Of a stretch of DNA of 51,425 nt, positions 2,538 through 51,225 are shown piece by piece (the stretch's first letter is position 1; each line of letters begins with the position of its first letter). Source of the DNA: a virus; IMG/VR virus record IMGVR_UViG_3300037297_000175, positions 1 through 51,425 of that record. One strand, written 5' to 3'. A program made the translations under genes and the position numbers. Under the pieces are notes generated by a model. That model was not told where the DNA came from, did not search any database, and was given only the letters and a program-made list of their open reading frames with translations.

Positions 2538-2940
2538 ACCGGACAAACCAGGATGCTACTGGTGGGAAGACGACTGCGGACGATATCACGTCGCAGAGTT
2601 TGACGAGGAAATGAAGACCCTTGATTCTTGCGATACTGGTTTTGTTAGTCCAGAAAAGTTTGAAGACTCGGTCTGTTTTATTCGATGGGTAGGCCCGGCG
2701 CACCCGCCGAAGTTGGAACCAACAACCGTACACGAAATGGTGAGCCAATGGCTCGTAAGAAATGGGGCCGATGGGCTCTGGAACGAAGAAGGGCCTTGCG
2801 GTTGTGATGGAACTGCACCGTGCGGCGACGGTCCATATACGGAGTGTAAAGCGGCGGTAGCTGTAGATGAGGATGGTAATGGTGTTGACTTTATATACTA
2901 TCCTGTAACTATACTACCTTATTGGGACTCCAATGGCTGA
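2527..2940 (+). CDS. RPDKPG-family small protein, copy 2
   Basis: Second paralogue: it opens with RPDKPGCYWWED and has WVGPAHPPKL about 45 residues later. The C-terminal half is unrelated to copy 1 and is Cys-rich (CGCDGTAPCGDGPYTEC). I placed the start at ATG 2527, six bases after GGAG; ATG 2524 or TTG 2515 are possible. The end overlaps the DUF5131 gene by eight bases. Function unknown. Confidence 0.6.
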   Translation: MENRPDKPGCYWWEDDCGRYHVAEFDEEMKTLDSCDTGFVSPEKFEDSVCFIRWVGPAHPPKLEPTTVHEMVSQWLVRNGADGLWNEEGPCGCDGTAPCGDGPYTECKAAVAVDEDGNGVDFIYYPVTILPYWDSNG

Positions 2941-3883
2941 CAAATCGAATATAGAGTGGTGTGATGCCACGTGGAACCCGGTGGTTGGTTGCTCGAAGGT
3001 GTCGGATGGGTGCGCGAATTGCTACGCAGAGCAGATGGTGAACAGGTTTACTCATTTAACGGGAGTTCACAGATATTCAGACCAGACGGGCGAAAGATAT
3101 TGTGATGGCCTTGGATGGGACGGAAGCGCCCACTTCATGCCGCACAAACTTGAGCAACCGTTTCATTGGCGGAAACCTCGCAAGATCTTTGTCTGCAGCA
3201 TGGGGGACCTGTTCCACGAGAGCCTCACCAACGAGCAGATCGCGGCCGTGTTCGGCGTGATGGCCGCTACGCCGCAGCATCAGTACGTGGTTCTGACGAA
3301 GCGGCTACAGCGGGCGATGAAGTGGTTCAACTGGGTAGATAGTATTCGGCATCCACGATACGGGGAAATAGAACCGTCTGTCGAGTGTGCTTTTCAACTT
3401 CTTAGGCAAGCGGAGCCTGATGGGGATGGACCTATTCACTGCAAGTACGGGCCGAATCCAGATGCTAAATGGCCCCTTGAAAATGTCATCATGTGCGCCA
3501 GCGTGGAAAATCAGCCGACAGTAGATGAGCGGGCACCACTCCTCTTTCAGATTCCTGCGAAATGGCACGGGGTGAGCGTTGAGCCGATGCTTGAGTCGAT
3601 CGATTTATACATGGATATGTATGAGAGCGAGACAGGATATTGGCACGCTCATGACTGTCCAAATTATTGTGATTATGCGTGTGACGGCTTTACCTCAGAA
3701 GGCGGAATAGATCTCGTCATCTGCGGTGCCGAGACCGGGCCTGGTAAACGGCCGTTCAAAGACGAGTGGGCACTGGACTTGAGAGACCAGTGTCGAGAGG
3801 CAGACACTCCCTTCTTCTTTAAAAAGGACGGAAACGGAAATGGGACGCTCTGCGGTGTCGAATATCATGAGTGGGTGAAGTAA
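2933..3883 (+). CDS. DUF5131 (phage Gp37/Gp68) family protein
   Basis: Matches the phage Gp37/Gp68 family, whose members open with IEWCDATWNPVVGC. Cys20, Cys27 and Cys30 form a C-x6-C-x2-C set, and the body has KIFVCSMGDLFHE, VVLTKR, and late VICGAETGPGKRPF and PFFFKKDG blocks in the expected order. The family is thought to be radical-SAM-like, with an unknown substrate, and is often found in phage early regions. Length (316 aa) is close to normal. No defect is visible. Confidence 0.85.
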   Translation: MADKSNIEWCDATWNPVVGCSKVSDGCANCYAEQMVNRFTHLTGVHRYSDQTGERYCDGLGWDGSAHFMPHKLEQPFHWRKPRKIFVCSMGDLFHESLTNEQIAAVFGVMAATPQHQYVVLTKRLQRAMKWFNWVDSIRHPRYGEIEPSVECAFQLLRQAEPDGDGPIHCKYGPNPDAKWPLENVIMCASVENQPTVDERAPLLFQIPAKWHGVSVEPMLESIDLYMDMYESETGYWHAHDCPNYCDYACDGFTSEGGIDLVICGAETGPGKRPFKDEWALDLRDQCREADTPFFFKKDGNGNGTLCGVEYHEWVK

Positions 3884-33514: not shown

Positions 33515-34102
33515 CTATTCTATCCCGCCGCAGCACTCGCCAATCTTCATGAGTACTTCACCTATGCCGATATCGGTCAGGTAACCGCATAGGTAGCCGC
33601 TTTTAATAATACCGCCCTTTTTCTGGCATTGTTCGGCGACTATAAACTCATTGTTGCCATCTATACACTCATAAGCCGGGTTATCCGTCGGACAAAGTGG
33701 AGGCATTTGACAACAACCACCATGTTCGCAGTCTGGTGATATGAAAGTATCACCGTTATAATCGACGCAATACTGATACCAGAGTCCACTCATTGAACTA
33801 CTGTCATCATTGCAATACCGCCCATCCTCCTCGTTGCACGAATCCCCATCCGTAGGAACGTCTGCGTCCGTATCGGTGTCCGCATCAGAATCAGTGTCAG
33901 AATCAGTGTCGGTATCGCTATCGGTGTCGCTGTCCGAGTCAGTATCAGTATCAGAATCCGTGTCCGTATCCGTGTCGGTGTCGGTGTCCCCATCACCCCC
34001 CGGATCGCTCTCCGTCTCGCTGTCGTCAAACTCCTTGTTCGGCTCGGTGTCGCACCCCGTAACCACCCAAAAAATCACCAAAATCCATGTTTTTACTTTC
34101 AT
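33515..34102 (-). CDS. Lipoprotein with long D/T/S repeat
   Basis: 195 aa. A signal peptide ends in a lipobox (WVVTGC, Cys22), followed by a 45-residue run of Asp/Thr/Ser repeats (residues about 40-85) of the type (TD)n(SD)n, then a Cys-rich globular end (C92 onward, with pairs such as CGGCC). This architecture is common in outer-membrane lipoproteins of Myxococcota and relatives. A surface lipoprotein in a phage may be for superinfection exclusion. The upstream AAGAAAATG context is weak. Confidence 0.7.
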   Translation of the reverse strand: MKVKTWILVIFWVVTGCDTEPNKEFDDSETESDPGGDGDTDTDTDTDTDSDTDTDSDSDTDSDTDTDSDTDSDADTDTDADVPTDGDSCNEEDGRYCNDDSSSMSGLWYQYCVDYNGDTFISPDCEHGGCCQMPPLCPTDNPAYECIDGNNEFIVAEQCQKKGGIIKSGYLCGYLTDIGIGEVLMKIGECCGGIE

Positions 34103-40567: not shown

Positions 40568-40699
40568 TCATAGCGCCCTCCAGATCTGTTCGATTAGAGC
40601 TGTTATCGATGCCAGAGCCCCGAAGCCAAACAGGAACACCAGCATCCAGAACATGATTTCAATTCTCGACTTTTTGGTTTTTGTTTTTATTAGTCGCAT
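40568..40699 (-). CDS. 43-aa single-span membrane protein
   Basis: Too short for usual cut-offs. ATG 40699 overlaps the previous stop (TAATG); AGGAG lies about nine bases upstream. A basic start (MRLIKTKTKKSRIE), then one hydrophobic helix (MFWMLVFLFGFGALASITA). Two genes from the transglycosylase: a possible holin or pinholin-like protein, by position and topology. Confidence 0.5.
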   Translation of the reverse strand: MRLIKTKTKKSRIEIMFWMLVFLFGFGALASITALIEQIWRAL

Positions 40700-41328
40700 T
40701 ATTGCTGCATCTCCTTTCTTCGCACGTATCCATCCAAGATACTGCCGATCTCTTCTGGAGTGCCTCGATGCGCAACAGACTGTGGCAACACGCCCGTGGT
40801 TCTCTTCTCTGGCAACGCAGGCGCCGTCAGATTAGCCGCTCTCGCGACAGCCGGCATGGTAACCGCCCTCCGCTTTTCATCCTGGCAGAGCGCCTTATAG
40901 TGGCTCAGGAAAACATGCCGTGTTGATTCGATACTCGAAGCGGTATTGATCGCCCAAGTACCGCCAGCGACATTTAGAGATCTCTTTTCTTTCGCACTGA
41001 GATCTACGTGATCCCTTCTGGCAAAGGCGCAAACCCTCTCCCAAGCTTCTGTGGGCGATATTGGGCTCAGTTCTCCACGAGCGATGTCAATAGCCCTGTC
41101 ACGCACCTGGCCGGGAGTGGGTGGCCACTCACGAGGCTCTGCAAGCAGATCCATTGCCGCTGCGAGCACGGATGTCTCGTTGATGTCCTTCAGCAGTAAA
41201 AACCAGGTTTCCCTTGTCACGTCCGATGGTGCCTTTATCCGTTCACCACCGAACGCAGCTATCATCCTAGAAAAAATCATCTCTATCGTTTCTGGTGATA
41301 CCCTCTGATTCCCTCTTGAGTCTTTCAT
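40699..41328 (-). CDS. Helicase-loader-like replication protein
   Basis: 209 aa. The pattern EREWPPTPGQVRDRAIDIARG (AEPREWPPTPGQVRDRAI) is typical of phage replicative helicase loader/inhibitor proteins, and the gene follows the initiator with a 62-base overlap, like P after O in lambda. N-terminal helices (PETIEMIFSRMIAAFGGERI) and a basic C-terminus agree. AGAGG precedes ATG. Would hand DnaB to the origin. Confidence 0.55.
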   Translation of the reverse strand: MKDSRGNQRVSPETIEMIFSRMIAAFGGERIKAPSDVTRETWFLLLKDINETSVLAAAMDLLAEPREWPPTPGQVRDRAIDIARGELSPISPTEAWERVCAFARRDHVDLSAKEKRSLNVAGGTWAINTASSIESTRHVFLSHYKALCQDEKRRAVTMPAVARAANLTAPALPEKRTTGVLPQSVAHRGTPEEIGSILDGYVRRKEMQQ

Positions 41329-42238
41329 CTCTGGACCTCTTTAATTTTTCGAGCTCTTGCTCTGTTTTGTTCAGTTTTGGTTTTGACTGTTCGGCCTGTT
41401 TCCGGATCGTGTTCTTCAGGCAGTTCATCAACCACTGGTGCAGCTTGTTTCGGCCGTTGATGTCATACACCGGGTCGTTGGGTGATTTGCTCGTTGAGAT
41501 GTCTTCGAGCCATCGCATCTGATCACCGTCGAGCTGCACAAGGTAGATTTTCGCTTGCTGCACCCATGCGATGGCGTCCTGGGTTGAGCAATCGGGCCAC
41601 GCGGTCAAAATGAATCTTGCGATATTTTGGTCTTCCAAGCTCGGAAGAAACTTCAATGCTTCATCGATTGGCTGTAGATCGACTTTCGATGTCTCCTCAA
41701 CTTGATCCTTCGATGTATTATATATATTTTTTCTTCCCTCTGTATCTGTATCTGTATCTGTAGTGTGTAACGCCTGGTAACAACCGGTAACATCATGTAA
41801 CGCGTTACCAGCGTTACGTAACGCGTTACCAGCGTTACCATCATTACATGGTGTATTACCGGCTTTCTGTTCCTTTAGGCGCTCCCGGTATCGCTTTTGC
41901 TTCTCTGCATTCTTTCGATTGCGGTCTTCTGGGGAATCTTTTTCCTGATAGATCTCATGATTCAAGATCTCCCATCCGCCTGGAACATCAGAAATCCTGC
42001 GCCCCTCATTGTTGGGTGTCCGACTGTACGGATCTGGCGAAGAAAGTCGTAACAGTGCTTCTTCGCACTGTGGAATTCCGACGCGGGCAGCATCGGCGAG
42101 CCCAGGGATGGAAGCCTCGACCATGCCGTCGCGGTCCTTCATGGCGAGCATTGTTATCCAGACAAGCCGTACGTGATCTGGCTCACGCCAAATAGTCGAA
42201 TGGATAATAGACGAGAACAGCTTGGAGTATCCACTCAT
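41267..42238 (-). CDS. Replication initiator with embedded origin
   Basis: 323 aa. N-terminal winged-helix domain: SKLFSSIIHSTIWREPDHVRLVWITMLAMKD, GLADAARVGIPQCEEALLRL. The middle (residues about 120-165) is low-complexity, read from the iteron DNA, and includes NAGNALRNAGNALHD and DTDTDTD. The C-terminus (helical, DNA-binding) includes HQWLMNCLKNTIRKQAEQ. A lambda-O-like arrangement: origin within the initiator gene. GGAAGG ribosome site. Confidence 0.7.
   Translation of the reverse strand: MSGYSKLFSSIIHSTIWREPDHVRLVWITMLAMKDRDGMVEASIPGLADAARVGIPQCEEALLRLSSPDPYSRTPNNEGRRISDVPGGWEILNHEIYQEKDSPEDRNRKNAEKQKRYRERLKEQKAGNTPCNDGNAGNALRNAGNALHDVTGCYQALHTTDTDTDTEGRKNIYNTSKDQVEETSKVDLQPIDEALKFLPSLEDQNIARFILTAWPDCSTQDAIAWVQQAKIYLVQLDGDQMRWLEDISTSKSPNDPVYDINGRNKLHQWLMNCLKNTIRKQAEQSKPKLNKTEQELEKLKRSRDERLKRESEGITRNDRDDFF
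41713..41839. other. Candidate replication origin (iterons)
   Basis: Two perfect tandem 21-base copies of an iteron at 41797-41817 and 41818-41838, each with the palindrome GTAACGCGTTAC. Additional GTAAC words lie at 41767, 41777 and 41787. On the other side there are TGTATC repeats (41741-41760) and an A+T-rich tract (41713-41735) that could serve as unwinding element. All lie inside the initiator gene. Confidence 0.65.
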
Positions 42239-42255
42239 GGTCGATGCCTTCCCAG

Positions 42256-42474
42256 CTACACCATTGAGGTGTCACTTGGCTGTTCGGTTTCGATTGGAAA
42301 CGTGCTCGCGTCTATCCATTCCTCGATGTCAGATTCTCTATATCGAACCGTGCATCGAATGCCGCTTCCGAGTTTGCGACCCTTGAGCCTTCCTTCTCGT
42401 GTCCATTTACGAATTGTTTCAATATGGACCGATAATTTATCGGCCACTTCTTGTGCGGTGAGCAGTTTTGACAT
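42256..42474 (-). CDS. Excisionase-like HTH protein
   Basis: 72 aa from ATG 42474 (AGGAGG about nine bases upstream). SKLLTAQEVADKLSVHIETIRKWTREGRLKGRKLGSGIRCTVRYRESDIEEWI is the MerR/excisionase-type winged helix. Placed beside attP and divergent from integrase, it is the best candidate for Xis or a small regulator. Confidence 0.7.
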   Translation of the reverse strand: MSKLLTAQEVADKLSVHIETIRKWTREGRLKGRKLGSGIRCTVRYRESDIEEWIDASTFPIETEQPSDTSMV

Positions 42475-42652
42475 ATCGGCATACCTCCTGCGCAATAGCG
42501 CAAATTAACTGCTCAAAACATATCGCCGGCGGGTTGGAAAATATCCTTTTGATTTCTGGGGCGAATTCAAAAGCAAAAAACTGGTGGCATTGCTGCTCCA
42601 AATATATAAAACAAATGGCGGCCAAAAAATGCATTGGCCACCCATAAAATGT

Positions 42653-42732: not shown

Positions 42733-42777
42733 CTACGGAACCGAGGGTCAGGTGTTCGAATCGCCTCGGGCGCGCCA
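42733..42777 (+). other. attP core: 3' end of a tRNA-Arg gene
   Basis: From the anticodon loop (CTACGGA) through stem ACCGA, variable loop GGGTC, T-arm AGGTG/TTCGAAT/CGCCT, acceptor CGGGCGC, discriminator G and CCA: 45 bases in correct order. The 5' half of a tRNA is absent. This is the usual attP of tRNA-targeting tyrosine integrases; integration would restore the host gene. The identity is Arg (CCG or ACG anticodon). Confidence 0.75.
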
Positions 42778-43037: not shown

Positions 43038-44147
43038 ATGAGCAAGCATATAAGACAGTCAAAACCCGCCAAGCGTGGTAAACGCTGGCAAATCCGATGG
43101 ATCGATGAAAACGGAAAAAGAAGAAGTCAAACGTGGGACAACTACGAGGATGCCGAGCACGCCTTGGCGACCCATAAGCTTCAAGTGATGGAGGTGCGTC
43201 GAGGCCTCCGGGTGCGTCCGCCAAAGGGCCGCAGCTTTGAGGAGCTTTGCCAGAGATGGCTGGAAGTCCGAACGACTCGGAAGCGCACCCGGAAAGACGA
43301 CACATCAATCATCGGGGTGCATCTGCGGCCGACTTTCGGTCGCTTAGATATCGCCCAGATCACTTCGGAGCACATTGACCTTTTTTCGGCAGCGCTGTCG
43401 GCAAAGCGCGCGCCACAGACTGTTCGGAACGTCCTGATATTGCTTGGCGCCATGCTTAGACAAGCCGTAGAATGGGGGTGGCTCCAGTTTGTACCCAGGA
43501 TACAACTGCCGAGGGTTCGACTGTTTGAGAGCGCCTACAGGTGGCTTCGTACAGAAGATGAGCGAGATCAATTTTTGCGCGCTGCGAAGCTGTATCACCT
43601 GCCGGTGGTCTATCACATGTACGCAACCGCAGTGCATACTGGAATGCGCGCCGGCGAGCTTGCGGGCTTGCGGTGGCAGGACGTAGACCTCAACCGTCGC
43701 ATAATCACCGTTCAGCGATCATACGATGGCCCAACGAAAGCCGGCGATATACGACATATCCCGATTGGCGACGGCCTGCTTCCTATTCTCAGGGAGTGGC
43801 GGCTGGCCTGTGGTAACCGGTTCGTGTTCCCCAATGCAGCCGGCCAGATGTGGGATCCGCGCGGTCGTATTTTCAAGACAATGTTCCATAAGGTGCTGCA
43901 ACTGGGCGGGTTCCCACCAAAGTACATCACTTTTCATTCCTTGCGGCACACATTCGCGAGTCATTTCGTGATGAACGGCGGCGACCTGGAGGGTCTCCAG
44001 CAAATCCTCGGCCACAAGGATTCGAAAATGACCCAGCGATACGCCCATTGGCGCCCCGATGCCTTTGACAAGTATCGAGGAATCATGGGGCCAGTAAAGT
44101 GCGGCGATGGCGAGGTGGTCGAGATGCGCAAGAAGGAGGAGGCATGA
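43038..44147 (+). CDS. int: Tyrosine-recombinase integrase
   Basis: 369 aa from ATG 43038 (after AAAGGTGTGAG; the longer frame to 42930 has no good site). An N-terminal AP2-type arm-binding part (RGKRWQIRWIDENGKRRSQTW) and core-binding part, then catalytic Arg204 (GMRAGELAGLRW), His300-x-x-Arg303 (HSLRH), His326 (LGHKD) and Tyr335. All five expected residues are present, so it is probably active. Catalyses recombination at attP/attB in tRNA-Arg. Next to attP and Xis-like gene. Confidence 0.9.
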   Translation: MSKHIRQSKPAKRGKRWQIRWIDENGKRRSQTWDNYEDAEHALATHKLQVMEVRRGLRVRPPKGRSFEELCQRWLEVRTTRKRTRKDDTSIIGVHLRPTFGRLDIAQITSEHIDLFSAALSAKRAPQTVRNVLILLGAMLRQAVEWGWLQFVPRIQLPRVRLFESAYRWLRTEDERDQFLRAAKLYHLPVVYHMYATAVHTGMRAGELAGLRWQDVDLNRRIITVQRSYDGPTKAGDIRHIPIGDGLLPILREWRLACGNRFVFPNAAGQMWDPRGRIFKTMFHKVLQLGGFPPKYITFHSLRHTFASHFVMNGGDLEGLQQILGHKDSKMTQRYAHWRPDAFDKYRGIMGPVKCGDGEVVEMRKKEEA

Positions 44148-45602: not shown

Positions 45603-45826
45603 AGACCATGAAGCGGCTCTACAAGAAGCACACGCGCGAGCTGGTTCGTATCGGATGGAAAGATGAAACAGGGCCAGATCGAACACCAATTCTAAAATGG
45701 AGACCACGTAAAGGCCCGCATCCATCGCTGAAGACCTTTATTCGTGGAATCAGTCAATCTGAACTATCCAAAAACAAAATCAGCCTTAGTCCAAAGGTAA
45801 AGAAAATACGTGAGGTCCACAAATGA
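45599..45826 (+). CDS. Small basic 75-aa protein
   Basis: ATG 45599 overlaps the previous stop (ATGA). Very basic (KRLYKKHTRELVRIGWKDE, KVKKIREVHK). May bind nucleic acid by charge. It overlaps the start of the RecE-like gene by four bases. Confidence 0.5.
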   Translation: MKTMKRLYKKHTRELVRIGWKDETGPDRTPILKWRPRKGPHPSLKTFIRGISQSELSKNKISLSPKVKKIREVHK

Positions 45827-46626
45827 ACCATCAGATATACGAAGAAATGGACGCCCTCAACTGGAGCACGCTAAAGCAAATGTCTACCTCGCCAGCGTTC
45901 ACAAAGCACCAGGCCGACCATCCCGAAGAAGCGAAAGACACGGACTCATTTCGTCTCGGGCGGGCAGTACACTGTGCGGTGTTGGAGCCGGAGAGGTTTC
46001 TGGATGAGTACATCGTGCAGCCCGACTTCGGAAACATGCGCACAAAGGCAGCCCGGGAGGCCAGAGATGGATGGCTGGCTGGCTTGCCCAAGGGTGCCGA
46101 GGTTATCAGTGGCGAAGAGTTCGAGGCGGCGACGAGGGCGGCCACGGCGGTTCATGCGCATCAGTACGCCATGGAATTACTGCGCGGCGCGAAGACAGAA
46201 CGCATTGTGCAGTGGACGCATCCAGGAACTGGAATTAAATGCAAGGGACGTCTGGACGCGATCACCGATAGGGTTGTGGACCTGAAGACAACTCGGCGTC
46301 CGACAGTGCGTGAGATCCTACGGGATGCCGCGAACTATGACTACCATGGCCAGCTCGCATGGTACCACGACGCAGCAATTCGAGCCGGGCTGATCGACGG
46401 ACACGTGCTCCCGGCAATGATTGCGATCCACATACAAAAGGGAAGCTCCTTCATTGACATCGCCGTTTTCAGTATGGGGTACGCCCCCGAGACACTGGAT
46501 GCCGGCCGCGCACTATACGAAGATCTGATCTCGCAATACGCGGGATGTCAATCAACAGAATGGTGGCCAGGTATGGCTCCGGAGGTGGTTCCATGGGAGC
46601 TCCCTTCATGGAAGATGGAGGGTTAG
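45823..46626 (+). CDS. PD-(D/E)xK nuclease, RecE-like (DUF3799)
   Basis: 267 aa. Typical of exodeoxyribonuclease VIII C-terminal domain-type phage nucleases: SFRLGRAVHCAVLEPERF with His50, and the active site CKGRLDAITDRVVDLKTTR with Asp145, Asp153 and Lys155. Gives single-strand overhangs for annealing. Close to the ERF gene, two genes downstream. A separate YqaJ nuclease follows later, so the module has two. Confidence 0.85.
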   Translation: MNHQIYEEMDALNWSTLKQMSTSPAFTKHQADHPEEAKDTDSFRLGRAVHCAVLEPERFLDEYIVQPDFGNMRTKAAREARDGWLAGLPKGAEVISGEEFEAATRAATAVHAHQYAMELLRGAKTERIVQWTHPGTGIKCKGRLDAITDRVVDLKTTRRPTVREILRDAANYDYHGQLAWYHDAAIRAGLIDGHVLPAMIAIHIQKGSSFIDIAVFSMGYAPETLDAGRALYEDLISQYAGCQSTEWWPGMAPEVVPWELPSWKMEG

Positions 46627-46830
46627 ATGGAACGAAAAAGGAATATCATGACGGCACCAATGGTTGCGCGCATCTGTGAGTGTGATCTGAAAACAATCCA
46701 CAATTGGGTGAACAGCGGGAAGATGAATGCCTTCCGGACACCGGGCAGGCATCTCCGGTTCACCAAGGCCGATGTCGTTTCGTTCTTGCGGAAATACGGC
46801 TTCGTCGTTCCCGGGGAGTTGCTGAAATGA
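46627..46830 (+). CDS. Excisionase-type HTH protein
   Basis: 67 aa. MTAPMVARICECDLKTIHNWVNSGKMNAFRTPGRHLRFTKADVVSFLRK, a MerR-like helix-turn-helix with wing. GGAGGG precedes the ATG. Located between nuclease and annealing gene; may regulate the module or be a second Xis-like protein. Confidence 0.65.
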   Translation: MERKRNIMTAPMVARICECDLKTIHNWVNSGKMNAFRTPGRHLRFTKADVVSFLRKYGFVVPGELLK

Positions 46831-47756
46831 CTGACTCGCACGCGATAACCACGACTGCGCCTGCGCAGATCGAGCAACAAACGAAAATGCATCCGCTGGC
46901 TATTGCCGCAATGCAAAATGATATCGACCCAGAGAGGCTGGAAAAACTCATGGCGCTTCAGGAGCGACATGAAGCACGGGAGGCGAAAAAAGCCTACACG
47001 GAATCAATGGCGCTGCTCAAGTCTGAGTTGCCAGCCGTCCTTGAACGGGATCAGAAGGTCGACTACGTCAATCGAAAAGGCATCAGGGTAACCTACACTC
47101 ACACCAGCGCAGCGTTGGCGGTGAGCGTTATTGTTCCAATCCTCTCCAAGTATGGTTTCTCGCATACCTGGATCCCCGCAACTGAAGGTGGTCTTGTCAG
47201 GGTTACCTGTCGAATAACACACCGCGATGGTCACAGCGAAGAAGCGCACCTGGAATCACCGCCAGACACCTCTGGGAACAAAGGGCCAGCGCAAGCCATA
47301 GCTTCGACGCAGACGTTGCTCAGCCGGTATACGTTATTGGGGCTGCTCGGCATCGCCACCGCAGACATGAAAGAGCCACGCCAATCAAGCGACGACAAAG
47401 TTGACGCCGCGAAAAACCTCCAGGCCGTCGCCACACTCAAACAATGCGACGTGACACTGGAGCAGGCGTGTAATCATGTCGGCAAGGACGTGCGGCAATG
47501 GACATTGGCGGATTTGGAAAAACTCAGAGAGCTCGTGAGGGCCAACCGAAAGCAACCAGCCGCCGAACCTGCCAAAACCGCAACCGACGAGTCGCGAGAG
47601 ATCGAACAGCTCCGCATAGAAGTAATCGACAAGGCCCGTGTAAAGTGGGGCGATGACGCCCTGACCAGTCTCGACAAACTCCTTCAGTCGAACGGGACAT
47701 CGTTTTCTGAGGCTGGATTGGATGCTCTCAACTGGGCGATGGAGGAAATGGAATGA
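46827..47756 (+). CDS. ERF-family single-strand annealing protein
   Basis: 309 aa from ATG 46827, overlapping the previous stop. ERF core: VPILSKYGFSHTWIP, GGLVRVTCRITHRDGHSEEAHLE, and SGNKGPAQAIASTQTLLSRYTLLGLLGIAT. Binds and pairs complementary strands in phage recombination. A C-terminal tail (residues 200-309) with acidic/helical character may recruit other proteins. Confidence 0.85.
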   Translation: MTDSHAITTTAPAQIEQQTKMHPLAIAAMQNDIDPERLEKLMALQERHEAREAKKAYTESMALLKSELPAVLERDQKVDYVNRKGIRVTYTHTSAALAVSVIVPILSKYGFSHTWIPATEGGLVRVTCRITHRDGHSEEAHLESPPDTSGNKGPAQAIASTQTLLSRYTLLGLLGIATADMKEPRQSSDDKVDAAKNLQAVATLKQCDVTLEQACNHVGKDVRQWTLADLEKLRELVRANRKQPAAEPAKTATDESREIEQLRIEVIDKARVKWGDDALTSLDKLLQSNGTSFSEAGLDALNWAMEEME

Positions 47757-48346
47757 ATACCGAACTGGCAACAATCGTAAAACAGTCCGGAATTGAACGG
47801 GCAAAACACGAAAAGCGTTTAGAAGAACAGCGCAAAGCAGAGGAGGAGCGCATTGCCCGGGAGAAAGCCGAGGCCGAAGAGCGCGCACGGATCGAGGCTG
47901 AGAATGCCCGCTTGCGGGCAGAGGCCAAAGAGCGGGAGCGTCAGCTTGCCGAAGAGCGGGAGAAGCGCGAAGCCGCAGAGAGAGCCGCGAGGGAAGCAAG
48001 GGAGGCCGCAGAGCGGGCGGAGCGGGAGAAGCGCGAAGAAGAAGCCAGGAAGGCTCGTGAAGAGGCAGAGGCGGCACAACGCGAGCTCAGGGAGAAACGG
48101 GAAGCTGAGGAGCGTGCCAAACGAGAAGAAGCGGCTCGCATTGAAGCACAGCGTAAGGCGGAGGAGGAAGAGAAGAAGCGCCTTGAGGCCGCTGGCGACA
48201 AAGAGAAACTGACTGCATTTTTCGAGCAGATCAGAGCGGTTCATACACCGTCTCTGAAGAGTGATACGGCAAATGAAATCATGGGGTTTTGGGACGAGTG
48301 TCTTGAGGCCTGCATCGAACTAACAAAAAACTTTCATAGGAGATAG
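47753..48346 (+). CDS. Long charged-helix protein
   Basis: 197 aa. Residues about 18-145 are almost wholly Glu/Arg/Lys/Ala in an i, i+4 salt-bridge pattern (EERIAREKAEAEERARIEAE and so on), i.e. a single-alpha-helix or coiled-coil rod of about 19 nm. The last 45 residues (KEKLTAFFEQIRAVHTPSLKSD...GFWDECLEAC) are globular. Lies between ERF and a DUF2303-like protein; may link recombination proteins. Confidence 0.6.
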   Translation: MNTELATIVKQSGIERAKHEKRLEEQRKAEEERIAREKAEAEERARIEAENARLRAEAKERERQLAEEREKREAAERAAREAREAAERAEREKREEEARKAREEAEAAQRELREKREAEERAKREEAARIEAQRKAEEEEKKRLEAAGDKEKLTAFFEQIRAVHTPSLKSDTANEIMGFWDECLEACIELTKNFHRR

Positions 48347-48351
48347 GTAAG

Positions 48352-48705
48352 ATGAGTTGGGAACCAGTAGATGTGAATCTCATCAATCATGGCGATGTGG
48401 TGGGCCAGGTGAATCACCACATCAATGAAGCCGTCAAGGACGCCCTCGACCCGAACAAGCCGGCAAACAAGGTCCGAAGGGTGACCTTGAAGATCGAGAT
48501 CTTGCCGACAGAAGATAGGCAACAGGCGGCAATCAAAGCCACCGTCGAAACGAAATTCCCGCCCGATGTTCCCGGTGTCGACATGTTGACGATCTACCGA
48601 GATGGGAAGCGCGGATTCATCAACACCGATGAACAGCTTGATATTTTTGACCCAAAAACGGGCGAAGTACCGAGCCTGATAAGAACGGAGAAAACCAATG
48701 ATTAG
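48352..48705 (+). CDS. Recombination-module hypothetical protein
   Basis: 117 aa. VDVNLINHGDVVGQVNHHINEAVKDALDP, then KVRRVTLKIEILPTEDRQQAAIKATVETKFPP; similar small beta proteins accompany phage recombination genes. The RBS AGGAGAT is good. Function unknown. Confidence 0.55.
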   Translation: MSWEPVDVNLINHGDVVGQVNHHINEAVKDALDPNKPANKVRRVTLKIEILPTEDRQQAAIKATVETKFPPDVPGVDMLTIYRDGKRGFINTDEQLDIFDPKTGEVPSLIRTEKTND

Positions 48706-49393
48706 AGAGGCAATAGATAGAATTTTGGACCTACAGCGACCACCGACATTTAAAGACTGTGAGGGTGTTGAGCGAAGCACCAATAACAAGGGTGTGATAT
48801 CGCCGACAGAGATTCCGCCTACTGAGGGCTCGACGCTTGATGGGGCCATTGCGGCAGCCGAGGATCATCACTATATACAGTGTTCAATGAACAAAGTCAT
48901 CGTCTTTGGCTTCGAGCATTACAACAACCGAATGTTCCGACGCGATGTGCACATCGCAAAGCCGATCCTGCCCGACAACTTTCGATTTGGCCATGCAATG
49001 GATATCGAGAGTTTCATTATCAACACCTCAGATTTCTTCATCCGAGATGACCCCTACAAGCAGATGATTGCCGCCATCTCCTGTATCACCGACGTGCAAG
49101 AGCAGGTCATCGATGATGACGGAATATCTCAGACCGTCTCATACAAGGCCAGGGTGGGGCGCAAAGGTGAAGGAAAGCTTGAACCATTCGTGACGCTTCG
49201 TGCCTATCGCACATTCCGGGAGGTTGAACAACAGCCCGAGGCGACTTATCTGATCCGAATCGGCAAAGGACGGGACGGCCCTACGATTACGCTCCATGAG
49301 GCAAGCGGCTACGACTGGAAGATCAAATGCACCAACGCTGTCTACCAATACATCCGGGGGCACGTAGGCGACGACGTGACGGTAATCAGGTGA
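48698..49393 (+). CDS. DUF2303-like protein
   Basis: 231 aa. Late blocks FVTLRAYRTFREVEQQPEATYLIRIGKGRDGPTITLHEASGYDWKIKCTNAVYQYI match the DUF2303 (YfdQ) pattern of phages and prophages. Accompanies Erf/Rec genes. Function unknown. The ATG overlaps the previous stop by eight bases. Confidence 0.6.
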   Translation: MIREAIDRILDLQRPPTFKDCEGVERSTNNKGVISPTEIPPTEGSTLDGAIAAAEDHHYIQCSMNKVIVFGFEHYNNRMFRRDVHIAKPILPDNFRFGHAMDIESFIINTSDFFIRDDPYKQMIAAISCITDVQEQVIDDDGISQTVSYKARVGRKGEGKLEPFVTLRAYRTFREVEQQPEATYLIRIGKGRDGPTITLHEASGYDWKIKCTNAVYQYIRGHVGDDVTVIR

Positions 49394-49397
49394 TGCT

Positions 49398-49622
49398 ATG
49401 CAGCAAGTGGAAGGATACATAGCTGAAATAAGAAGCGAAGTCAGGGAATGCCTCGGATGCGGAAACCTCGTCGTTGGCGGTTCAAGCTGGTGCATGAACT
49501 GCGTCAGGGCGGCTGAAGGCCCTCGAAAGATTTTCGGCATAACAGCTGTAGGTTGGATGGTCATCTTCGTTGCGAATATGATCTGCGCTGCCGCAGCCGT
49601 GGCAATCGCCCTGCTCGCATAG
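49398..49622 (+). CDS. Zinc-ribbon plus membrane-anchored small protein
   Basis: 74 aa: CLGCGNLVVGGSSWCMNC is a four-Cys zinc-binding cluster, then a C-terminal membrane helix (VGWMVIFVANMICAAAAVAIALLA). Function unknown. Confidence 0.55.
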   Translation: MQQVEGYIAEIRSEVRECLGCGNLVVGGSSWCMNCVRAAEGPRKIFGITAVGWMVIFVANMICAAAAVAIALLA

Positions 49623-49652
49623 AACTATTATCGGAAGTAAGGAGTAGATGAA

Positions 49653-49742
49653 ATGGATGATTTGACACTACCAATAATCGCGATAGTGGCTTCGGTTATA
49701 TCACTCGCGTACAGTATTTACAGAACATATAAACCATTTTAG
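49653..49742 (+). CDS. 29-aa single-span membrane micropeptide
   Basis: GGAGTAG and ATG 49653 open a 29-codon frame with one hydrophobic helix (LPIIAIVASVISLAYSIY) and a basic end. Plausible small membrane protein; below usual cut-offs. Confidence 0.4.
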   Translation: MDDLTLPIIAIVASVISLAYSIYRTYKPF

Positions 49743-49823
49743 CCGATAACTTCTGAACATTATCGGTAAAGGATCGATAGACACAAATTCTACGAACGGA
49801 TCGCAATCTGCCTCGACAGTCGC

Positions 49824-49982
49824 ATGTCGCAACGAGACTCCGAGGAGGTTGCGGCCCGTGAGTTTTTCGCATCGTGCAATCTGCCGACCATAGAGGACAA
49901 GGCCGATGCTGACCGGCTCGGGTGGTCGAAGTTGAAGATATTTCGCACGATGAATCAGGAAGGATTTACGAAATGGAGATAG
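49824..49982 (+). CDS. Small protein, perhaps truncated start
   Basis: 52 aa from ATG 49824: RMSQRDSEEVAAREFFASCNLPTIEDKADADRLGWSKLKIFRTM. The frame is open upstream to a stop at 49767-49769 and reads sensibly (KFYERIAICLDSR), but has no start codon there, so the original start seems lost. It overlaps the next gene by ten bases. Confidence 0.45.
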   Translation: MSQRDSEEVAAREFFASCNLPTIEDKADADRLGWSKLKIFRTMNQEGFTKWR

Positions 49983-50317
49983 CACACAAAGACTGGATAG
50001 AAGAAGCAAAGAAACGTTACGAAACATCAGACGATATTGCTTTCAAGTGTCCATCATGTGGACACATCGCCACGGTAAAAGAATGGAAAGACGCCGGGGC
50101 TGATGAGGGAGAGATCGGATTCTCGTGCATCGGTAGACGCATTGGCGCAAAGCGTGAGGCACTTGATTCGCAAAGCAAAAAAGGACCATGCAACTATGCC
50201 GGAGGAGGGCTGATTCGCCTTAATCCGGTCAAGATTGTTTTTGACGAAGGAAACGCGACGTCGGTTTTTGATTTTGCTGATGACCCGCTGTGTGTAGGCA
50301 ACCAAAGCCTACCGTGA
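49973..50317 (+). CDS. VVA0879-like phage protein
   Basis: 114 aa from ATG 49973, after GGAAGGA. Typical: DWIEEAKKRYETSDDIAFKCPSCGHIATVKEWKDAGADEGEIGFSCIGRRIG, followed by KGPCNYAGGGLIRLNPVKI. Cys pairs suggest zinc. Function unknown; common next to phage early genes. Confidence 0.65.
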   Translation: MEIAHKDWIEEAKKRYETSDDIAFKCPSCGHIATVKEWKDAGADEGEIGFSCIGRRIGAKREALDSQSKKGPCNYAGGGLIRLNPVKIVFDEGNATSVFDFADDPLCVGNQSLP

Positions 50318-50337
50318 TTACAAGGAGAGGCATCCCG

Positions 50338-51225
50338 ATGAAAACCCGTAAACAATGGCTGAAAGAACGGAAACGTTTCATCACCGCCTCGGACGTAGCC
50401 GCAGTGCTTGGAGTGGCGACCGCATTCAAAAACATCCTCGACGTTTACATGGACAAAACAACCGAGGACGTCAAGGAGAACGACAGCCCGATTCTGCGAT
50501 ACGGCCATTACATGGAGCCTTTCACGGCCGAGCTCTACGCCGAGCAGACAGGCCGTGAGGTGCGCGACCCGGGGGCAACGGAGATCGCCGTCCACCCAGA
50601 CATCCCTTGGCTTGGGGCCACATTGGATCGAGAGACGCTTGTGGACGGCCGCTGGATACCACTGGAGATAAAGCAGGTCAATGACCCTCGCTACATCTTT
50701 CGTGCGGCTGAGTGGGCAGAGGAGCCGCCCGAACAGTACTGGATACAGTGTCAGACACAGGCGGCCTGTAAACAAATGGACTTGTGCGCTATCACCGGTC
50801 AGTTCCCGGGGTGCATGCTCGCCAACGCCGATCTGGAGTTTGACGGGGAGTTTTTCGAACTGGCGTATCCGGTGCTCGATGAGTTTTGGAACTACAATGT
50901 AAAGAAGCGGATCCCTCCCGAGGTGCCCGACCATCCGAAGGCACTGGATTCTCTGAAGCGACTCTATCCAAAGGAGAACGGCTGGACCGTCACCCTCAAT
51001 GACAACGCGCTCCAGTTGGCCAACGATATGCGCGCCCTCAGAGCGGAAGCGCGCGAGAACGACAAAGAGGCAAAGCGGATCGAAGCGATACTGAGAGGGC
51101 AGATGGGAGAGGCTTCTTATGGCTCTTTGAGAGACGGAACAGTCCTTCAACTTACCACGGTCAATCGGAAGGGCTACACCGTTGAGCCCAAAAGTTTCCG
51201 TCAGATGACAAGAAAGAGATACTGA
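50338..51225 (+). CDS. YqaJ-type (lambda exonuclease-like) nuclease
   Basis: 295 aa from ATG 50338 (AAGGAGAGG seven bases before). ITASDVAAVLGVATAFKN, YGHYMEPFTAELYAEQTG (Glu60), WLGATLDRETL (Asp97) and WIPLEIKQV (Glu110, Lys112) form the YqaJ active site. Degrades the 5' strand to make 3' overhangs for ERF. The C-terminal ~90 residues form a helical tail. Confidence 0.85.
   Translation: MKTRKQWLKERKRFITASDVAAVLGVATAFKNILDVYMDKTTEDVKENDSPILRYGHYMEPFTAELYAEQTGREVRDPGATEIAVHPDIPWLGATLDRETLVDGRWIPLEIKQVNDPRYIFRAAEWAEEPPEQYWIQCQTQAACKQMDLCAITGQFPGCMLANADLEFDGEFFELAYPVLDEFWNYNVKKRIPPEVPDHPKALDSLKRLYPKENGWTVTLNDNALQLANDMRALRAEARENDKEAKRIEAILRGQMGEASYGSLRDGTVLQLTTVNRKGYTVEPKSFRQMTRKRY

Follow-up and report, generated by a model that had tools for sequence, protein, structure and literature searches.

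A putative lambda-type replication origin within a phage initiator gene, with iterons one helical turn apart and a hexamer array in register

Results

An initiator-like gene with a repeat-bearing linker

The window analysed here is the whole of a 51,425-b virus record. On its minus strand lies a gene (41267..42238) for a protein of 323 amino acids that is initiator-like by its open reading frame, AF2 model and relatives. The protein comprises a winged helix-turn-helix (wHTH) N-terminal domain (NTD), a basic stretch, a repeat linker and a C-terminal domain (CTD). On the coding strand the order is NTD, basic stretch, iteron words, hexamer array, A+T-rich stretch and CTD. The NTD (41894..42238, minus strand), delineated by alignments, AF2 and Foldseek, bears the signature WITMLAM...GGW and is predicted to bind the iterons. 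Its AF2 model (pLDDT 84) contains an HTH and a wing, and Foldseek matches to this model in BFVD include named replication initiators and replisome organizers; a fold search of the PDB returned generic winged-helix regulators only, with no match at E≤0.001. The CTD (41267..41712, minus strand) is found elsewhere fused to other NTDs with other repeats (relatives L005–L008). Its model was poor (pLDDT 63) and was left unused. The 323-residue protein belongs to no significant Pfam or NCBIfam family, and PHROGs leave it unclassified.

Overlapping the initiator gene is a minus-strand gene (40699..41328) for a candidate P-like helicase loader, so named from weak PHROG matches: phrog_109, a P-like helicase loader, at E 0.0019, alongside phrog_9804 (unknown) at E 3.3e-7. 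At the helicase-loader position, isolate phages that share this layout encode DnaC- or P-like proteins. Just upstream of the initiator gene, also on the minus strand, a small HTH_17/excisionase-like protein is encoded (42256..42477; Pfam HTH_17, 1.2e-12; PHROG excisionase). An Rfam search of 41–43.2 kb found nothing.

Repeats, array and A+T-rich stretch in the linker codons

In the DNA encoding the linker, repeats are denser than in any other 127 b of the genome, with 28–30 repeated 8-mer pairs against a genome mean of 0.53. Its centrepiece is a pair of perfect tandem 21-mers (41797..41838), 41797–41817 and 41818–41838 both reading GTAACGCGTTACCAGCGTTAC; no further copy exists in the whole genome with up to 3 mismatches allowed. 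Perfect 12-bp palindromes begin at 41797, 41812 and 41818, out of a genome total of 11. The words GTAAC and GTTAC occur 38 times in 51,425 b, and nine of these lie within the 72 bp of 41767–41838. Plus-strand GTAAC words begin at 41767, 41777, 41787, 41797 and 41818, in steps of 10, 10, 10 and 21 bp, and GTTAC words at 41804, 41813, 41825 and 41834. The direct 21-bp repeats belong to a longer ladder, whose words are spaced ~10 bp. Degenerate copies extend to 41861, and with the lag spectrum of the family they define a minus-strand iteron block at 41767..41861.

Beyond the iterons on the coding strand comes a hexamer array (41739..41760, minus strand), seen as TGTATC repeats on the plus strand. 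It consists of four CAGA units, where shuffling predicts 0, and reads (CAGATA)n, encoding DTDTDT; the family consensus is CAGANR. Beside it is an A+T-rich stretch (41713..41755), the presumed unwinding element: the 40-bp site that starts at 41716 ranks second lowest in stability in the 51-kb genome (0.06 percentile).

The initial annotation had described two perfect 21-base repeats with internal palindromes, further GTAAC words, TGTATC repeats and an A+T-rich tract in the middle of the initiator gene. All are present as listed above, and the iterons lie between the winged-helix NTD and the CTD, in the order of lambda. Its segment, 41713–41839, has been extended, and the functional segment is better stated as about 41713–41861. 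GC skew, which it had proposed as a check, proved uninformative. The cumulative minimum does fall at 41–43 kb, yet gene direction switches there. Plus-strand ORFs at 27.5–28.8 kb have positive skew, so that skew follows the coding strand, and we rejected it as independent evidence of an origin.

Iteron words recur once per helical turn in relatives

NTDs with the WITMLAM signature were found in at least 139 viral-contig stretches and a few bacterial genome contigs. The relatives analysed below are 79 distinct loci, the window included; some match the O-like phrog_345/678. Although common in environmental viral contigs (IMG/VR), the domain had no match by tblastn, with the window protein and the NTD of L011 as queries, in 50,697 isolate phage records (INPHARED). 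Hence the isolate examples given later come from other initiator families.

Most relatives have repeated words in the linker directly after the NTD, and the word varies by phage: GTAACG, TGTCAAC, GTCAATGACA, GTGGACA, GTCAGCA, GTCGACA, GTCACG, GTAGA and others. These words cluster on the NTD tree, requiring 28 changes compared with 43.7 when labels are shuffled. The NTD of L004 is 50% identical to that of the window, and GGTAACGCGTTA is kept twice. L006 combines the CTD seen in the window with CCCAGTGGG words and an NTD matching PHROG primosomal proteins, and L005, L007 and L008 have this CTD behind a third type of NTD. Natural domain shuffling is visible when L005–L008 are set against the window (41267–41720): the CTDs are 69–91% identical and the NTDs unrelated. 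The junction of this shuffling is the array and the A+T-rich stretch.

Across 69 non-redundant linkers, the lags between repeated 5-mers peak at 10 bp (z 36), 20, 30 and 40 bp; lags of 9 and 11 bp come close behind. Individual loci exemplify this: the words step by 11-10-11-10-11 bp in L025, L029 and L049, and by 10-10-10-10-10 bp in L018. Iteron words of 5–6 bp therefore recur every 10–11 bp, which is one helical turn and no multiple of a codon, and in-frame duplication cannot be the source of such steps. A period of 21 bp is the shortest at which helical phase (2 x 10.5) is preserved without loss of reading frame (7 codons), which is why this unit is favoured. The perfect 21-mers of the window and the NAGNALR peptide that they encode are accounted for by this coincidence of two turns with seven codons. 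The helix-turn spacing shows the DNA to lead and the protein repeat to follow.

The hexamer array is in helical register with the ladder

Runs of three or more CAGA units spaced exactly 6 bp apart are present in 41 of 74 linkers, as against 0/79 N-terminal regions and 2/48 C-terminal regions. In these units, which were selected for CAGA, the counts at positions five and six give the consensus CAGANR. About 10 relatives have no array by the detector applied. Most arrays read as (D/E)(T/A), and one frame is common to 38 of the 41; selection on the protein, favouring an acidic linker, may therefore play a part in them. Another frame is used by L101 and L034 (QIQK, QKQK), the reading in L004 is RDRD, and in L094 the array is the reverse complement and is read PLPLPL. 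The array in the linker of L061 has two inverted halves (GCATCTGCATCTGCAGATGCAGA), which suggests that array orientation may flip.

Measured from the last iteron word, the first CAGA lies preferentially at 10–12, 21–24 or 29–31 bp. At a 10.5-bp period the Rayleigh value of these distances is about 2e-7, and nothing is seen at codon phase. The start of the array is thus in helical register with the ladder, about one, two or three turns past the last iteron.

Linker DNA is conserved beyond the needs of the protein

We next compared linkers with synonymous alternatives, back-translating them with the gene's own codon usage (cut-off p≤0.05). The repeats exceed synonymous expectation in 67 of 77 relatives; the corresponding figures are 8/79 for N-terminal codons and 9/71 for C-terminal codons. 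With the array excluded, 45/79 linkers are still above expectation compared with 0/79 N-terminal controls. The 6-mer repeat count of the window's linker was reached in 0/200 resamplings, and hence the protein sequence alone does not force the repeats. Aligned with L003, its closest relative, the window has 0/150 substitutions across the iterons, array and A+T-rich stretch, against 40/345 in NTD codons and 12/432 in CTD codons, although the zero could partly stem from a recently exchanged block. These comparisons indicate that linker sequence and spacing are maintained beyond the protein's needs, with the repeats selected at the DNA level in dozens of relatives. The earlier suggestion that the origin shapes the encoded protein is borne out by both helix-turn spacing and the excess of repeats over synonymous expectation.

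The same layout in other initiator families

Scanning viral contigs for (CAGANR)4 alone returned at least 80 loci. Among the matches listed, 51 of 80 are ORFs linked to initiators by single-linkage BLAST, compared with 7 among 50 ORFs matched by the reversed pattern only. This control is imperfect in that GAGACA arrays fit both patterns, hence the restriction to reversed-only matches. In PHROG scans of the CAGANR set, primosomal and replication-initiation families dominate among the matches listed; in the reversed-pattern list the leading family is one for head scaffolding, and members of replication families are few.

The ladder accompanies the array in these other families. In the 120 b before the array, 48 non-redundant other-family initiators among the matches listed have a ladder of 10–11, 20–22 and 30–33 bp, and lag 11 is present at 37 of the 48 loci. 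The 21 ORFs among the matches listed that carry the same array and are unlinked to initiators have no 10–11-bp ladder. Isolate phages, whose hosts are known, follow the same plan. In Aeromonas phage pAEv1818 and Pseudomonas phage 5399, for instance, GTCACG recurs at intervals of about 10 bp, and TCGCG words lie at about 10–11 bp in Mycobacterium phage Brujita. In isolates the period of the purine-rich tract may be 5, 6, 7 or 8 bp, so that the hexamer is a common form of this tract, one among several, rather than the sole form.

Discussion

A proposed lambda-type origin with a one-turn ladder

We read the segment as a lambda-type theta origin lying inside the initiator gene, and put the probability of this at roughly 0.88 from sequence comparison. 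The features described above support its being a variant of that type, in which one-turn iterons would be combined with a phase-locked hexamer tract. In the mechanism we propose, ladder sites along one face of the helix would be bound by the NTDs of initiator monomers or dimers, and the bound initiator would wrap or bend the DNA. The adjoining A+T-rich stretch would melt in supercoiled DNA, the purine-rich (CAGANR)n strand being held as a single strand by the initiator or a partner, and the CTD and the product of the next gene would recruit the host helicase. The part given here to the array in opening we put at about even odds; initiator or partner is preferred as its binder by analogy with lambda O/P and with iteron plasmids.

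In-gene iteron origins have been known since lambda, where the ori in gene O consists of four 18-bp iterons followed by a purine-rich A+T tract on the coding strand. The inverted repeats that O dimers bind within gene O measure 19 bp; on O binding, a strand-asymmetric A+T region of 40 bp opens, its single strand being bound by O/P (PMC5043065, PMC7466680). The present segment shares with lambda, and with Stx phages 933W and P27, a position in the middle of the initiator gene and the succession of several symmetric iterons, purine-asymmetric A+T tract and C-terminal codons (PMC7466680). It differs in that lambda iterons are 18–19 bp long, lie about two turns apart and have another word, whereas here words are about one turn apart; comparison with lambda ori thus confirmed that the repeat unit is not that of lambda, as had been noted initially. 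The window iterons are not 18–19-bp inverted repeats but two palindromic 21-mers with 10-bp steps besides, and the asymmetric tract is, unlike lambda's, a CAGANR hexamer array. Homology of the window initiator to lambda O was considered and rejected, there being no O-like match in Pfam, NCBIfam or PHROG.

Plasmid iterons usually lie outside the rep coding sequence. The segment resembles the origins of iteron plasmids (RK2, F and P1), which have helically phased direct repeats and an adjacent A+T-rich element containing repeats that are bound single-stranded (PMC5043065). The initiator itself has no match to the plasmid Rep families (RepA/RepE/TrfA) in Pfam or NCBIfam, and none by a PDB profile search with the NTD. 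In mycobacteriophages Miko and Jeeves, a gene for a RepA-type HTH initiator of a different family suffices, with short flanks, for plasmid replication; the origin of these replicons is presumed to lie within or beside the initiator gene (PMC7157519).

A wider reading, for which the chances fall a little short of even, is that unrelated initiator families share an in-gene code of two parts. A phage-specific one-turn ladder would be followed by an in-register (CAGANR)n that is read single-stranded during opening, as a counterpart of the DnaA-trio, and the linker protein would be a by-product. Among openly licensed papers we found none whose title or abstract reports a one-turn ladder in phage initiators, a hexamer array phase-locked to it, or the recurrence of these across initiator families.

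Other explanations of the array and the words

Two alternatives, both unlikely, concern the array. It might consist of primase start sites, because the complement of CAGA, 5'-TCTG, contains CTG, the start trinucleotide of E. coli DnaG. CAG does recur as the core of array units, which were selected for CAGA, and relatives L043, L054 and L063 have TAGA, that is, CTA. Priming needs no helical register, however, a few arrays lie on the opposite strand, and the repeats at the array position in Salmonella phage SPN1S and E. coli phage mEp515, GAGAA and GAATTA, lack CTG.

A similarly improbable reading takes the array for a DnaA-trio-like element: once the DNA is open, host DnaA would assemble there in place of the phage initiator. 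The DnaA-trio has the form 5'-NA(G/A)-3', which (CAGAAG)n variants fit, but in the GATACA array of the window only every second triplet does. Double-strand sites followed by a short-period array of single-strand repeats do resemble the unwinding region of B. subtilis oriC (PMC10201434). Unlike oriC, the segment lies inside an initiator gene, its array has a six-base instead of a three-base period, and no DnaA box is near it, the one match with 1 mismatch within 41000–42600 being at 42154.

That the linker is simply a low-complexity, disordered protein spacer, its DNA repeats arising from protein repeats and microsatellite slippage, we regard as very unlikely. The linkers look disordered and are often acidic (TDTDTD, AEAEAE), the shared frame of 38/41 arrays fits such a spacer, and slippage yields perfect repeats. 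What decides against it is that the repeats exceed synonymous resampling, that the 10/11-bp iteron spacing is unobtainable by in-frame duplication, that the array begins in helical register with the iterons, and that the same array is read QKQK, RGRG, SASA, PLPL or RDRD in other phages. A microsatellite or protein-only origin of the repeats was rejected on this spacing and frame evidence. Least probable of all is that the words are operators through which the initiator or a repressor autoregulates the replication operon, no origin being present: wHTH proteins commonly act as regulators and the words are palindromic in places, but the sites are mid-gene, far from a promoter and usually beside an easily melted asymmetric tract, and the words follow the NTD type of the initiator itself and also occur in unrelated initiator families.

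If the segment is the lambda-type origin that we propose, the ladder and array would provide a sequence-only route to origins and cognate initiator sites in uncultured phages, and the composition of unwinding elements would become a testable question with dozens of natural variants. The loci also contain natural domain swaps, in which iteron words change along with the NTD, and they would illustrate how DNA geometry (10.5 bp) can be imposed on protein sequence via 21-bp, 7-codon units.

Other features of the record

A minus-strand, lipoprotein-like ORF (33515–34102) contains long DTDTDTDSD repeats, a peptide similar to the initiator linker in a different context; it may be a moron derived from a host that has secreted proteins of this kind. 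ARAGORN found no complete tRNA in the window. The 3' part of a tRNA gene is present at 42750–42777 (T arm, acceptor strand CGGGCGC, G, CCA), next to an integrase gene (43038–44147, plus strand), and this fragment is likely the attP/att core. The plus-strand ORF at 2933–3883 encodes a putative protein resembling phage Gp37/Gp68-type proteins. A plus-strand recombination cluster (45823–51225) has PHROG matches to an exonuclease VIII-like protein (45823–46626), an Erf-like annealing protein (46824–47756) and a RecE-like exonuclease (50290–51225).
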